From: a virus
DNA: 64,000 bases
IMG/VR virus record: IMGVR_UViG_3300013093_000019
Span: 87,370-151,369 of that record
Strand: one strand, 5' to 3'
Shown: positions 8,673 through 60,031 of the stretch, one piece after another
Layout of the letters: the number at the start of each line of letters is the position of its first letter
How positions within the stretch are numbered: the stretch's first letter is position 1
Program-made: the position numbers and the translations under genes
Notes under the pieces: generated by a model
Told to the model about the DNA's origin: nothing
Seen by the model: only the letters and a program-made list of their open reading frames with translations
Databases searched by the model: none

Positions 8673-8891
8673 TTGCTTCTCGACAATGAAGGTGTAGCCA
8701 AATTCATTGAAGAGATTGATTCGGAAGTAAAGGCCTTAAAAGACGAGTTGTTTAGGCTAGTCTGGTTTATGCGCGGTGGCATATCCTTAGAAGAAGCTTA
8801 TCAGCTAGACGTTGCTGATCGTTCGATCATTAATACGATTATCAAAGATAATCTAGAAACTACACAAGAAAGCGGACTGCCTTTCTTTTAA
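8673..8891 (+). CDS. gp51-type extension of the tail chaperone, reached by -1 frameshift or TTG start
   Basis: A 72-codon frame at the position of gene 51 in T4 (which follows 26). It is acidic and helical, with LVWFMRGGISLEEAYQLD in the middle. No ATG begins it. The only initiation codon near its upstream end is TTG at 8673, with AAGG four bases before it. The frame is open upstream through the slippery heptamer of the preceding gene, so fusion by frameshift is at least as likely as independent initiation. Its end overlaps the convergent gene at 8888 by 4 bases. The gp51 name is by position only. Confidence 0.65.
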   Translation: MLLDNEGVAKFIEEIDSEVKALKDELFRLVWFMRGGISLEEAYQLDVADRSIINTIIKDNLETTQESGLPFF

Positions 8892-9595
8892 ATGTTTTTG
8901 CCTAGGAATTTACTGTAGAATTCAACAACAGGTTTAGCATTACTAGTAGTACCTTCCGCTGCACCCACTAATTTTTCCACTTTAGCAAGACGTTGACTGA
9001 TTGCTTGTAGATCAGCACCACCTGCAGCACCGCTACCACCGCCTGTGTATCTTGCAGCACCTGTTGCAGGAGCTTGATTGCCTGCTTGTGAACTATAACC
9101 AGGACCGCCAACAGCATCAGCACCTGCATTATATCCTTTCTTAAGAGCGCGGCCAGCGCCAGCTACTCCGCCTGCTACAGCGCCAATACCTTTGGCTGTT
9201 TGTCCTACTACATTTGCTAGACCTTTAACAAAGCCACGACCCTGTTTAGGTTGACCCGGTAAAGGAGCATCTAGAGTTGGATCACCTGTAGGACCTGTTG
9301 ATGTTTGAGGATCTTGGCCTACTTTTTGATCTGTATCTGCTGGAGGAGTTGTTGCTTGTGTTGTATCTGCTGGAGTATCTTGCTGTTGTAATTGAGAAGC
9401 CATGTTGCCCATTACTTGCTTGCCCGCACCATTATCTGCTGGAGCAGCTTGATTCTTAGCAGTAGCTATTTTAGTAGCAATTTGCTGTCCTCTTTGCTTA
9501 TTAGCATCTTTGATAGCTTTATATTGATCAGGAGTCATACCTGTCGCATCAAGTTCAAATATATCTTGGCTTTCTACTAAGTGAATAATTTTCAT
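8888..9595 (-). CDS. Gly/Ala/Gln-rich protein, possibly structural, function unknown
   Basis: A 235-residue protein not recognised as a known family. It has a short N-terminal region (MKIIHLVESQDIFEL), a Gln/Ala/Thr/Pro-rich linker (about 40-118), a glycine-zipper-like segment at about 125-155 (GLANVVGQTAKGIGAVAGGV) that could be amphipathic or membrane-active, another Gly/Ala-rich run, and a final helical segment with LQAISQRLAKVEKLV (about 195-209). The late-type element upstream and the location among structural genes suggest a virion-associated product. It converges on the chaperone extension with a 4-base overlap. Confidence 0.65.
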   Translation of the reverse strand: MKIIHLVESQDIFELDATGMTPDQYKAIKDANKQRGQQIATKIATAKNQAAPADNGAGKQVMGNMASQLQQQDTPADTTQATTPPADTDQKVGQDPQTSTGPTGDPTLDAPLPGQPKQGRGFVKGLANVVGQTAKGIGAVAGGVAGAGRALKKGYNAGADAVGGPGYSSQAGNQAPATGAARYTGGGSGAAGGADLQAISQRLAKVEKLVGAAEGTTSNAKPVVEFYSKFLGKNI

Positions 9596-10077
9596 TTACA
9601 CGATCCTCAAATTACGTATGTTTTTATTTATGTTTAAAAATGAGCTAAAGCTCATTTGCTCTTTCGCTAACGCTCAACGCATTTATTTCTTTCGAAGAAA
9701 GATTAAGTATTATCTAGATATAATGGTCACACTTAACCCAGGAAAGGGTCAAGATGTACTAGCATTATCTGAGTATGCAAGTCACTTAGCGTTGTGGCAT
9801 TACTGAAGCGGTCATCCTGTACTCCTAGCCACGTCTTATTATGACGGTAATCTAACATATATACGCTAACATATATGTTAAATCCGGGGTTTCTCTCCCC
9901 TCTTTTAGCTCTTATTCACTCTATTCAAATAGCAAAACCGCGGCAAATTGCGATCGACGTCCTGTTAAGGATAGTTGCTAAGTACTCTGTACAGCGCAGG
10001 GAATTCCGTCCCTCTTATTATCGAGTTGGCGTGGGCACACGATGTTAGCCTGTGCTAGCTTAAACTGTAATACGAGC
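9596..10077. other. 482-base gene-free region with many perfect hairpins; candidate structured RNA
   Basis: No convincing gene on either strand. The stretch holds several short perfect stems: 9638-9657 (8 bp, loop taaa); 9688-9702 (TCTTTC/GAAAGA); 9832-9846 (CGTC/GACG, 7-base loop); a 14-bp palindrome TAACATATATGTTA at 9867-9880 with a direct copy of its first 10 bases at 9853-9862; 9886-9900 (GGGG/CCCC followed by TCTTTT); 9982-9992 (GTAC/GTAC); 9998-10013 (AGGGA/TCCCT); and 10044-10059 (GTTAGC/GCTAGC with one wobble). G+C counted by hand rises to about 42-50% in 9901-10080. A TATAAT hexamer lies at 9719-9724. No tRNA T-loop signature was found. Confidence 0.45.
9625..9632 (-). promoter_or_regulatory. 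Candidate late promoter
   Basis: CATAAATA on the minus strand, one mismatch to TATAAATA, 30 bases before the ATG at 9595. A perfect 8-bp hairpin (AAATGAGC-taaa-GCTCATTT, 9638-9657) sits immediately upstream and could end transcription coming from the right. Confidence 0.4.
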
Positions 10078-10506
10078 CTAAAGTTTACCTTTAATATGAT
10101 TCTTGTGTACTCTTACTTGTACATGTCCATTATAGTAGTCATCTGATTCTAATACTTTGCGGTCAAATTGTTCGCGGGCCTCAATGTAGGATGTTGCTGA
10201 TTTTGATTTGCAGTAATGTAATATTTCGCGGGTAAATTTATCTGTGCCTAGTGTGTCTATATCTGCTTGTAAGTTAGGACTGCTTCCATAATATGTCATC
10301 CAGTCGCTTTCTATCTTGCCTCTGATTCTTTTCTTTTTCTTTTTGCCGTTCTTTAACTTTACAGTCTTGTAGGTCGTCTTACTAAATTTTGCTAATTTTT
10401 TGCCTATGTATTTGCGCCCTGTTACTGTGTTGGTTATAATGTATACAAATCCAACACAGTCCTCAGGTAATTCTGTTACTATAGCACCTTGATACGTCCA
10501 AGTCAT
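10078..10506 (-). CDS. GIY-YIG domain endonuclease
   Basis: 142 residues from the ATG at 10504-10506, chosen because it overlaps the previous stop as ATGA and has GGA upstream; a TTG three codons farther up is the alternative. The GIY-YIG core reads GFVYIITN (about 19-26) then KYIGKK (about 34-39). A Lys/Arg-rich insert, DWMTYYGSS (about 67-75) and a conserved EAREQFDRKVL-like segment follow. This matches stand-alone GIY-YIG nucleases of T4-like phages (Seg-like), which cut DNA and can promote their own spread. No separate DNA-binding module is visible. It is translationally coupled to the methyltransferase. Confidence 0.8.
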   Translation of the reverse strand: MTWTYQGAIVTELPEDCVGFVYIITNTVTGRKYIGKKLAKFSKTTYKTVKLKNGKKKKKRIRGKIESDWMTYYGSSPNLQADIDTLGTDKFTREILHYCKSKSATSYIEAREQFDRKVLESDDYYNGHVQVRVHKNHIKGKL

Positions 10507-11240
10507 TCTTTCCAACTTGCGACATGCTGGCTAGGACTAAAGTGTTGTACTTCCATTCCTAGTTTATCGAACATGATTTCTAAACTCTTATTAGAGTGCA
10601 TACATACATGTCCGTTACGAGGAGCAATATACCAATAGTTTGCACCCTCGCGACCAATAATATCGTTGACCAACGTGCTGATAACAATCTGCCCGCTCTC
10701 TGGATTTAGAAAAGAAACTATTTCTTTTGCTGTTTCCCAAGGAGTAGGAGTATGTTCTAGTACTTCAAATGCTGTGATTACATCAAAGGTTTTGTCTTTT
10801 TCAAATGTAGGATCAGTTAACCACATTGGGTCCCATCCTACTGCATCGTAGCCTTGTCTTTTTAGTTCTTGACTGAACGCATCTGTTCCTGCACCGTAGT
10901 CAAGAACAGTAATAGTCTTATCACCACCTAGCATTGGAGTAAACCAATTGACACAGTCTATAGGTCTTTTACCACCGTACTCTGGATCTACTTTGAGATA
11001 ATCGCTATTATAAATGTTTTCTAAAAAGTCGTCTTTAGTCCAACTATCAAAATCAGTGCTAAAAATAAATTGACAGTCGTTGCACTGATGATAGTAAACA
11101 GCAAAGCCCATAGGACTAAAAACAATCTTATTCTTTTCTTCTTCGCAAGTCCTATTAAAGTCCTTAACTCCGAGAACAGATGTTTCTCCGTCGCAAATTT
11201 TGCAACGAAGGTGTTGATATTTTGGTGCTAGAGTAACCAC
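10503..11240 (-). CDS. SAM-dependent methyltransferase with N-terminal zinc-ribbon-like region
   Basis: 245 residues starting at GTG. Cysteine pairs CKIC (about 13-16) and CNDC (about 53-56) suggest a zinc-binding N-terminus like that of sugar C-methyltransferases. The class I methyltransferase core follows: VLDYGAGTDAFSQEL (motif I, about 112-126), VGWDP (about 134), FDVITAFEVLEHT (about 152-164) and GQIVISTL (about 183-190). The substrate is not readable; sugar or small-molecule methylation is more likely than DNA methylation because no DPPY/NPPY motif is present. It is coupled to the GIY-YIG gene and follows the Hc1-like gene by 3 bases. Confidence 0.8.
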   Translation of the reverse strand: MVTLAPKYQHLRCKICDGETSVLGVKDFNRTCEEEKNKIVFSPMGFAVYYHQCNDCQFIFSTDFDSWTKDDFLENIYNSDYLKVDPEYGGKRPIDCVNWFTPMLGGDKTITVLDYGAGTDAFSQELKRQGYDAVGWDPMWLTDPTFEKDKTFDVITAFEVLEHTPTPWETAKEIVSFLNPESGQIVISTLVNDIIGREGANYWYIAPRNGHVCMHSNKSLEIMFDKLGMEVQHFSPSQHVASWKE

Positions 11241-58300: not shown

Positions 58301-58697
58301 CTGCTCGAAAGTTCGGCGAGCGATAGTTGCCTTTGCCTGGCATTGTGTTCCTAACACCGCCAACCGGATCTTCGACATCGCCCGTTCTGCGTGGGATAAG
58401 ATGTATATGAGGCCAGTTGACAGTTTGACCTGCAGCTTTGCCATAGTTAAGTCCCACATTGAAACCGTCCCATTCTCCGGCTTCCACCATTCCTTTACCA
58501 TATCTAACTGCATCTTCAAACGCATCACTTAAAACTCCTAAGGTGTTATATTTAGGCACATACAATAAATGCCCTGGCGTACAAGGATACTTGTCCGCAA
58601 AAACTTTTACATGATAGTCTTCGTTTACTAATTCAGTCCACGGTGCTTCGCTATCATCGATATCATCTGGGATACCTTTAAAAATATGATTATCCAT
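58296..58697 (-). CDS. HIT-family nucleotide hydrolase/transferase
   Basis: A 133-residue histidine-triad protein. PGHLLYVPK (about 42-50), FNVGLNYGKAAGQTVNWPHI (about 79-98) and the triad-like ending PHIHLIPR (about 96-103) match HIT proteins, which hydrolyse or transfer nucleoside phosphoramidates or dinucleotides. The triad is HIHLIP, where the third His is replaced, as in some phage members. A C-terminal extension RNTMPGKGNYR is also typical of phage versions. The start overlaps the kinase stop (ATGG within 8 bases). Confidence 0.82.
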   Translation of the reverse strand: MDNHIFKGIPDDIDDSEAPWTELVNEDYHVKVFADKYPCTPGHLLYVPKYNTLGVLSDAFEDAVRYGKGMVEAGEWDGFNVGLNYGKAAGQTVNWPHIHLIPRRTGDVEDPVGGVRNTMPGKGNYRSPNFRAD

Positions 58698-59472
58698 TTA
58701 TTTCCTCTAACGTTGGTGCATAGTTTCCTAAATGCTGTACTGTGACAGCACTAGCATTAATCGCAAAATTAATAGCATCTTGCATACTGTTAGTAGTTAG
58801 GTAGCCGTAGACCAATGCAGATAAAAATGTATCGCCTGCTCCGCATACATCAGCTACTTCGACAGTTTTTGCATTAAACGCAAAATCACCCCATACAACT
58901 CCTTTATCGCCATAGGTAACAATCATGTCAGTGTAATCGCTAGGGTGGCTAGTAAGCTGGCTGTATTCGTGCATATTAATTTTAATAATGCACCCTTCTA
59001 ATTGTGCTAGGTCATGCTTTTTAGTGTCGACAAATATAGGACCATGATAGGCCTTACGAAGATTTTTTATTAGATCGTAACTAACATATCCTTTGTTATA
59101 ATCGCTAATAACAATAGCATCTACATTACCGTTGTTTAAATCATAAGGAATATGATCAAATGGTAACGGAGTAGAAGTAGAGTCAACATCAGATCTCATA
59201 ATATGTTGTTTTGATCGCAAGTCAATATAACGAGTCTTAACGCTTTCTTTTCCTAGCATAGGAACGACAGCACAGCCTAACGCTTCTAAATTGAGTTGTA
59301 CATTAGCAGCCATTCCTGGTTTTTCTTCATCATGTGAAAATTTAAACACAGGTACAGGTGCTTCGGGTGATATGCGGTCTACCGTTCCAAAACGATAAAC
59401 ATCTACACAATCATCTCCGATCAATAATAGTTTGAAGTGTTTTCGTTGTTGAGTATTCACCGAGTCGTTCAT
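58690..59472 (-). CDS. PfkB/RfaE-type sugar kinase
   Basis: A 260-residue ribokinase-fold kinase like the N-terminal half of HldE (heptose-7-phosphate kinase). Motifs: LLLIGDDCVDVYRFG (about 15-29), ISPEAPVPVF (about 34-43), KPGMAANVQLNLEALG (about 51-66), DAIVISDYNKGYVS (about 119-132) and the anion hole/catalytic VADVCGAGDTFLSAL (about 206-220). The partner nucleotidyltransferase is the preceding gene; the two overlap by 62 bases. In bacteria the same two activities make ADP-heptose. The actual sugar is not known. A shorter start (GTG 59460) is possible. Confidence 0.82.
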   Translation of the reverse strand: MNDSVNTQQRKHFKLLLIGDDCVDVYRFGTVDRISPEAPVPVFKFSHDEEKPGMAANVQLNLEALGCAVVPMLGKESVKTRYIDLRSKQHIMRSDVDSTSTPLPFDHIPYDLNNGNVDAIVISDYNKGYVSYDLIKNLRKAYHGPIFVDTKKHDLAQLEGCIIKINMHEYSQLTSHPSDYTDMIVTYGDKGVVWGDFAFNAKTVEVADVCGAGDTFLSALVYGYLTTNSMQDAINFAINASAVTVQHLGNYAPTLEEING

Positions 59473-59812
59473 AATAAATTACTTCTGGTACATAAGTTTC
59501 ACCAATTACACTACGACCTTTGTAGTCGCTACCTTTGACCATAATGTCTGGTTTAAAGATTTGAATAATTTCTATAAGTTCTTCTTGGCTATCAAACATC
59601 AAAACTTGATCTACTGATCGTAACTGTTCTAAATGATATTTGCGATCGTATTGATTTACGATAGGACGATTTTCGCCTTTAAGTTCTTTAACCCTACGGT
59701 CTGTGTCAATACACACAAGTAGATAGTCTCCTAGGCTACGTGCTGTGTTTAGCATTCTGATATGTCCTTGATGTAGGATATCAAATGTGCCGTTGACAAT
59801 TATCTTCTTCAT
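59411..59812 (-). CDS. RfaE/TagD-type nucleotidyltransferase
   Basis: A 133-residue cytidylyltransferase-fold enzyme: NGTFDILHQGHIRML (about 7-21) has the HxGH motif, SLGDYLLVCIDTDRRVKELK (about 26-45) and RPIVNQYDRKYHLEQLRSVD (about 49-68) are typical, and KGSDYKGRSVIG (about 93-104) is a signature of HldE domain II. It would activate a sugar phosphate with a nucleotide. With the PfkB-type kinase it makes a split HldE-like pair. ATGA overlap with the gene before it. Confidence 0.85.
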   Translation of the reverse strand: MKKIIVNGTFDILHQGHIRMLNTARSLGDYLLVCIDTDRRVKELKGENRPIVNQYDRKYHLEQLRSVDQVLMFDSQEELIEIIQIFKPDIMVKGSDYKGRSVIGETYVPEVIYYERLGEYSTTKTLQTIIDRR

Positions 59813-60030
59813 ATGATGCGACCAAGTCCTAGATAGATTAGGGTTTCCAGTTCAGCTTGGTAATCTTTGCCCAGTCTACGTTTTTGGTAAATGGATTCTA
59901 GCACTTCTTTGCCATCACCATAGTCCATAACACCCGAGCCACGTGACTCTAATTCTTCAATTAGATCGTCTGTGTCAAAATCTGCTAAGTCAACATCAAC
60001 TTCGACTTCTGTGTAAATTGTTTTATACAT
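59809..60030 (-). CDS. Small acidic protein, function unknown
   Basis: 73 residues, starting MYKTIYTEVEVDVDLADFDT followed by DDLIEELESRG, a beta strand then acidic helix conserved among T4-like aquatic phages. The C-terminal half is RLGKDYQAELETLIYLGLGR. No catalytic motif. One base separates it from the cupin gene; ATGA overlap with the nucleotidyltransferase gene. Confidence 0.68.
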   Translation of the reverse strand: MYKTIYTEVEVDVDLADFDTDDLIEELESRGSGVMDYGDGKEVLESIYQKRRLGKDYQAELETLIYLGLGRII

Positions 60031-60031
60031 A

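Follow-up and report, generated by a model that had tools for sequence, protein, structure and literature searches.

A structured RNA of about 440 nucleotides beside a SegE-like gene of a T4-like phage, and its relatives with exchanged 5' halves in uncultured viruses

Introduction

What is encoded in the noncoding gap of 482 bases that an ORF scan leaves between two minus-strand genes, at positions 9596-10077 of the 64-kb stretch of viral DNA analysed here (the window)? The source record, of 151 kb, carries T4-type genes (gp46-like, baseplate hub), and the virus is a T4-like phage. A previous reading made from the letters of the window (the sequence-only reading) had called this the only gap above 300 bases in the 64 kb, which is essentially right, because the one rival in the ORF scan, at 59473-60031, is occupied by two genuine ORFs that overlap. 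It had proposed a structured noncoding RNA with a transcript of about 175 bases and, as alternatives, an intron remnant or a nuclease-associated element.

Results

An RNA on the minus strand extends beyond an Rfam family

The covariance search against Rfam that had been recommended for this gap gave a match on the minus strand. Polynucleobacter-1 RNA (RF01718) was detected by cmscan at 10060-9927 with 84.2 bits (gathering score, 37; E ~2e-16), and model positions 1-141 of 141 were covered, which makes the segment a member of the family. RF01718 had one match in the whole 151-kb record, and no further Rfam match at the gathering score was obtained anywhere in the window. Polynucleobacter-1 RNA was described in 2010, with a range of Burkholderiales and of fresh water or estuary (PMC2864571). 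Its Rfam model, of about 140 positions, does not include the helix P0, the core and the 3' domain described below, and no clan is listed for it.

An exact scan of IMG/VR with the core motif AACTATCCTTAANNGGACG returned at least 120 stretches, which were judged by eye to be true copies, and in these relatives the conservation runs about 300 nt past the Rfam model, up to a terminator hairpin. We aligned 72 distinct IMG/VR sequences over the whole unit (class 1), and the structure was derived from covariation. By this comparison, RF01718 is only the 5' third, known since 2010 (PMC2864571), of a conserved RNA of about 440 nt. This RNA takes up the gap between the SegE stop codon and an intrinsic terminator, with ends that would lie at about 10076 and 9635, and the last hairpin is likely its terminator (Table 1). 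The existence and the fold of this RNA are well supported, and we infer its function in the Discussion. No paper was found that links RF01718 with RF02947 (see below) or describes the full RNA; a 2017 survey, which possibly covers cow-rumen-2, lay outside the literature search.

Table 1. Features of the RNA and of the adjacent genes (window coordinates)
Feature	Position	Strand	Evidence or remark
Full-length RNA gene, ~440 nt	9635..10076	-	72 distinct IMG/VR loci, helix covariation, fold z -3.25
5' domain, RF01718 Polynucleobacter-1	9927..10060	-	cmscan 84.2 bits
AGGC motif at SegE stop	10079-10076	-	upstream of 46/71 class 1 RNAs vs 16% in shuffles
Helix P0, outside the Rfam structure	10068-10065/9994-9991	-	92.7% paired vs <=82.6% swapped; 4/4 pairs with double changes
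P1	10055-51/10039-35	-	above 200 swaps
P2	10025-23/10014-12	-	above 200 swaps
Three-way junction P3/P3a/P3b, near-invariant AACTATCCTTAACAGGACG	9930..9980	-	100% paired
Central core H1, H2, H3, H5, H6, PK1, PK2	9778..9915	-	common to class 2 RNAs and RF02947
Hairpin H2	9900-9886	-	above 200 swaps
Hairpin H3	9883-9850	-	12/12 pairs with double changes
Pseudoknot PK2, UUAGCGU with ACGCUAA	9869-9863 with 9792-9786	-	7/7 pairs with double changes
Pseudoknot PK1, GUCAU with AUGAC	9845-9841 with 9815-9811	-	100% paired; 3 pairs with double changes
H5	9831-28/9798-95	-	above 200 swaps
H6	9825-22/9808-05	-	above 200 swaps
Weak RF02947 cow-rumen-2 match	9792..9883	-	19.4 bits
Twin direct repeats CTCAGATAATG and TCTAGATAATA	9773-9763 and 9718-9708	-	common 7-mer AGATAAT
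Intrinsic terminator hairpin, then U's	9657-9638	-	98.7% paired; 6/6 pairs with double changes
SegE-like GIY-YIG endonuclease gene, directly upstream	10078..10515	-	PF19835 SegE_GIY-YIG, E 4.1e-33
Downstream gene, N-terminus MKIIHLVE	8888..9595	-	resembles T4 internal-head-protein targeting sequence; putative function

The predicted folding energy of the gap on the minus strand was -129.4 kcal/mol, compared with -110.7 +/- 6.0 for shuffled sequences (z -3.15), and the stems noticed earlier are therefore real. The plus strand also folded below its shuffles (z -2.46). For the RNA trimmed to about 440 nt, on the minus strand, z was -3.25, and 0 of 100 shuffles were as low. The raised G+C content of the right half of the gap was confirmed, with 43.3% versus 38.2% for the whole window, as was the palindrome with a partial direct copy (9850-9883), which is hairpin H3 with its loop in a pseudoknot.

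The sequence-only reading was right that a structured noncoding RNA is present, as seen from the Rfam match and from the compensatory changes that it had suggested looking for in relatives, and wrong on strand, length and ends. It had started its transcript at a TATAAT at 9719, which is on the plus strand and overlaps one conserved repeat of the minus-strand RNA, and therefore starts no transcript of this RNA. The GGGG/CCCC stem near 9900, taken as a terminator, is hairpin H2 of the minus-strand RNA, and none of the proposed boundaries is used. A plus-strand transcript of about 175 nt was rejected, since the Rfam match, the conservation and the covariation all fit the minus strand. No tRNA or tmRNA was detected, and ARAGORN found no tRNA in the 64-kb window, in agreement with the earlier impression that the gap does not look like a tRNA.

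Covariation supports a knotted fold

At least 15 helices, two of them long-range pseudoknots, are supported by covariation in the aligned loci. Double changes were seen in 32 of the 39 pairs of the central core, and 93.3% of the cells were paired (A1/R1); the covariation score of the core was 0.504, versus 0.194 after shuffling (0/500) and at most 0.118 for slid partners. The core model, R1, scored 123 bits on the window. As a further control, whole strands were exchanged between sequences in 200 swaps, and P0, P1, P1b, P2, P3, P3b, H2, H3, PK1, PK2, H5 and H6 exceeded all of them, as did the terminator, the UUCG hairpin and the GAGC hairpin with the stem that closes it, although part of the relatedness effects remains in these controls. 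P3a and H1 vary too little for this control to inform on them; within the three-way junction, three pairs each of P3 and P3b carried double changes and P3a was invariant. The candidate helix between the two repeats and the 3' hairpin gained no support from the strand-swap control, and the former had no pairs with double changes.

The RNA fold is knotted: PK2 joins the loop of H3 to a strand that lies past H5, and PK1 joins the segment behind H1 to the loop of H6. Variable extra hairpins were observed in the linker from H6 to H5 in several relatives (L010:850-950, L102, L139 and L325), suggesting that this linker is a tolerated insertion point in the fold.

A second class has the same locus and a different 5' domain

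We collected 80 SegE relatives irrespective of any RNA, and R1 found the RNA beside 34 of them. For 11 of these 34 the R1 score was weak; the core and the 3' domain matched, and the 5' domain was unrelated (class 2). Five class 2 loci gave no Rfam match at E 1, and this class is absent from Rfam. A pattern from the class 2 5' domain returned at least 120 stretches, and R1 detected the RNA in 51/51 of the loci tested among those fetched by this unrelated pattern, with one match each. The layout recurs in the class 2 alignment, where covariation is seen in PK1, H5, H6 and the pairing of a hairpin loop with a strand past H5.

Both classes occupy one locus. The gp46 gene was upstream in 24/24 class 1 and 50/50 class 2 loci, and a convergent hub gene was downstream in 29/31 and 34/34, respectively. 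Therefore, the locus is inherited while the 5' module differs. SegE ended no more than 120 nt from the RNA in 61 of the 67 class 1 loci and in 68 of the 86 class 2 loci, and in many loci the 5' helix of the RNA overlaps the coding end of SegE.

This adjacency raises the question of whether the RNA might be a guide or a scaffold for the upstream SegE GIY-YIG nuclease. The RNAs of TnpB and IscB overlap or flank their nuclease gene, and the arrangement here, with a structured RNA next to a nuclease gene and in part overlapping it, resembles that of the guide RNAs of those systems (omega RNA, reRNA, HEARO). However, the nuclease here is a GIY-YIG protein of only about 145 aa, not RuvC/HNH, and the association is not obligatory: approximately 45 of the 80 close SegE relatives had no RNA detected alongside, 16 RNA-less SegE records gave no R1 match (some may be fragments), and the RNAs of class 3, described below, were next to SegE in 0 of 20 cases. 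The adjacency can be ascribed to the gene order, which is fixed on both sides by gp46 and the hub gene. A guide function for SegE would be very unlikely, although the near-constant adjacency in classes 1 and 2 leaves a little room for some SegE-linked role. Of the nuclease-associated element proposed earlier, the positional adjacency to SegE stands, but it is explained by the fixed gene order, and the rumen-type relatives are without SegE.

A homing-type nuclease adjoining an RNA of ribozyme size with a complex, pseudoknotted fold would also fit a ribozyme or a mobile RNA element of intron-like type, for which SegE would be the homing endonuclease. No Rfam intron model matched at E 10, however, and the neighbouring genes are whole. 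The RNA is intergenic, at one fixed locus, and in a single copy in each of the 12 class 1 records searched. We regard such an element as quite unlikely. The intron remnant of the sequence-only reading is not upheld, as the element is whole and conserved and splits no gene.

The SegE-like GIY-YIG family (10078-10515) is labelled 'NAD synthetase' in PHROG 447, and numerous GenBank records carry the same label, apparently a misannotation. After SegE and a small gene, the segment L166:3250-3500 is GC-rich, apparently noncoding and without an R1 match, and is possibly another RNA near the same slot.

The gene downstream of the RNA is variable

The gene after the RNA in the window is on the same strand, and Weinberg 2010 gave Polynucleobacter-1 RNA a likely cis-regulatory role (PMC2864571). 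The relatives, however, carry different genes after the RNA, in many cases on the opposite strand, and no consistent same-strand gene was found; moreover, the terminator, which covaries, stands between the RNA and the gene that follows. A cis-acting leader (riboswitch or attenuator) of the downstream gene is, from these results, as improbable as the SegE guide.

Among downstream ORFs of at least 90 aa in the relatives, 36 of 47 start with M[KR]x3-4(I/L/V)xE. Such ORFs were seen in the window (8888-9595), in L005, L010, L017, L020, L026 and L041, and in others, and their bodies are Ala-rich and highly variable. The internal head proteins of T4 carry a capsid-targeting leader and are cleaved by a protease. 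The leaders of the downstream genes resemble the leader of these proteins, and a corresponding function may be predicted from this likeness. Elsewhere in the window (58690-59812), two adjacent ORFs look by eye like the kinase and nucleotidyltransferase halves of an HldE-like protein of heptose synthesis, and are possible host-surface sugar genes.

The core is related to cow-rumen-2 RNA

With 19.4 bits, against a cut-off of 66, the model of cow-rumen-2 RNA (RF02947) matched the core of the window RNA; E was 0.029 when the 151-kb record was searched, and no other place in it reached E <= 1. When whole records with class 1 RNAs (up to 354 kb) were searched, 6 of 7 had a single RF02947 match at E <= 1, which fell on the RNA core, although the core motif contained in the class 3 pattern is present in three of the seven (L014, L099 and L110) and in the window. 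Four class 2 records gave no match with RF02947. Because its sole match falls on the core in 6/7 class 1 records, homology of the RF02947 core and the core of the window RNA is supported by the sequence searches, and membership of the window RNA in the RF02947 family is not.

A pattern made from the conserved positions of RF02947 returned 35 stretches, with an RNA of roughly 370 nt (class 3), which has the 16-mer GAGTACAGGATGACCG in common with the window and seems to have its own promoter. The R1 test of class 3 is biased, because the class 3 pattern contains the core motif, and the search of whole records with RF02947 is cleaner. A first cow-rumen-2 pattern, GGAGCACAGGATGACCG, had given 6 matches, all by chance, and was discarded. 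RF02947 RNAs differ from the window RNA in the 5' domain, in the phages, in the gene neighbours and in having several copies per genome; up to four copies above the RF02947 cut-off were found per class 3 record. The records G033 (424 kb) and G037 (416 kb) each have four cow-rumen-2-type RNAs, scattered on both strands. Class 3 is assigned to rumen phages from the Rfam name, sample metadata aside.

The RNAs are found in uncultured viruses

At least 240 stretches were obtained from a single virus collection with the two exact patterns. Hundreds of uncultured virus sequences carry related RNAs in which the 5' half is exchanged. BLAST of classes 1, 2 and 3 against 50,697 phage records detected no member, and BLAST of class 1 against plasmids gave no match. 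In 84,980 bacterial and archaeal species genomes, the exact patterns gave no true match (0, then 6 chance matches without the RNA). R1 and RF01718 detected no RNA in the six cultured phages whose SegE is nearest, among them Methylophilales phage Melnitz, a single match at E 0.3 being taken as chance. The nearest cultured gp46 is about 50% identical, and a protein search with the downstream gene found one weak relative. The absence in cultured phages rests on BLAST and exact patterns, and therefore distant cultured members may exist.

Two repeats in the 3' domain change in concert

The 3' domain contains two copies of xGATyAz, one on either side of a hairpin, and their fixed neighbours differ (ACTC and ATCT). 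Positions x and y agreed between the copies in 69/69 and 85/85 RNAs, and both 7-mers were identical in 165 of 168 distinct RNAs, even though at least nine different 7-mers occur. The repeats changed about 22 times on the class 1 tree and about 21 times on the class 2 tree; these trees were built from the 5' sequence, and therefore the counts may be too high if the 3' part has recombined. No third column tracking the repeats was found within the class 1 RNA by mutual information, and the 7-mer of each RNA showed no consistent enrichment in its flanking DNA. Class 3 seems alike by eye in a part of its sequences, with ACAGAT/ACAGAT, ACGGAA/ACGGAA and GCAGGT/GCAGGT. Complementarity cannot explain the identity of the repeats, and two binding sites for one partner can.

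Discussion

These comparisons show a conserved and folded RNA, free-standing and of modular build, with a terminator behind it. It probably acts in trans, its 5' module varying between classes and its paired repeats serving as recognition elements. Its transcription would come last in the run of genes from gp46 to SegE, and it would work as a scaffold or an adaptor during infection, with the conserved core holding the fold and the 5' module giving a lineage-specific activity. Each of the identical repeats would bind the same kind of partner, which may be a protein or an RNA, of the phage or of the host. If the preferred sequence of the partner shifts between lineages, both repeats must shift together. 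Upstream of the RNA, some relatives (L102 and L015) seem to have a consensus-like sigma-70-type promoter of their own, TTGACA-N17-TATAAT, and several AGGC motifs precede the RNA in L102 and L050.

GOLLD, a large phage RNA, assembles into a 14-mer nanocage. The twin repeats could likewise be intermolecular contacts of a homo-oligomer, such as an RNA cage that encloses a cargo. The size, the pseudoknots, the phage origin, and the conserved 3' and variable 5' parts of the window RNA parallel GOLLD, which has a complex structure with a conserved 3' and a less conserved 5' region (PMC12286853). However, the repeats are identical rather than complementary to each other, and the window has no tRNAs; GOLLD is frequently, not universally, found in or near tRNA islands (PMC12286853). 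A cage would be unlikely, if less so than the intron-like element.

GOLLD is the nearest parallel to the window RNA in style, not in sequence. The window RNA is about half the size of GOLLD, the GOLLD model of Rfam did not match 9400-10300 on either strand at E 10, and a tRNA island of the GOLLD type is absent, as ARAGORN found no tRNA in the 64 kb. ROOL is likewise a large phage RNA, of elaborate structure with pseudoknots, and has been found in the rumen too (PMC12286853). The window RNA is like it in size, structure, pseudoknots and phage origin; the ROOL model gave no match at E 10, and the window has no tRNA. In its way of working, the RNA may most resemble GOLLD and ROOL, and it is a member of neither.

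It is possible, as a tentative proposal, that these RNAs form one more class among the large, ornate RNAs of phages, widespread and of modular build, and serve as bivalent adaptors. The two identical 7-nt elements, under coupled selection, would both read one partner, and lineages would retarget the RNA by changing the two together and by swapping whole 5' modules. By the present results, RF01718 and RF02947, filed as unrelated small RNAs, belong to a single superfamily of large RNAs in phages, which also takes in a class found in no Rfam RNA family. The concerted twin repeats provide a sharp, testable clue to the function. If the RNA works like GOLLD or ROOL, it would be a further case bearing on the role of large phage RNAs.
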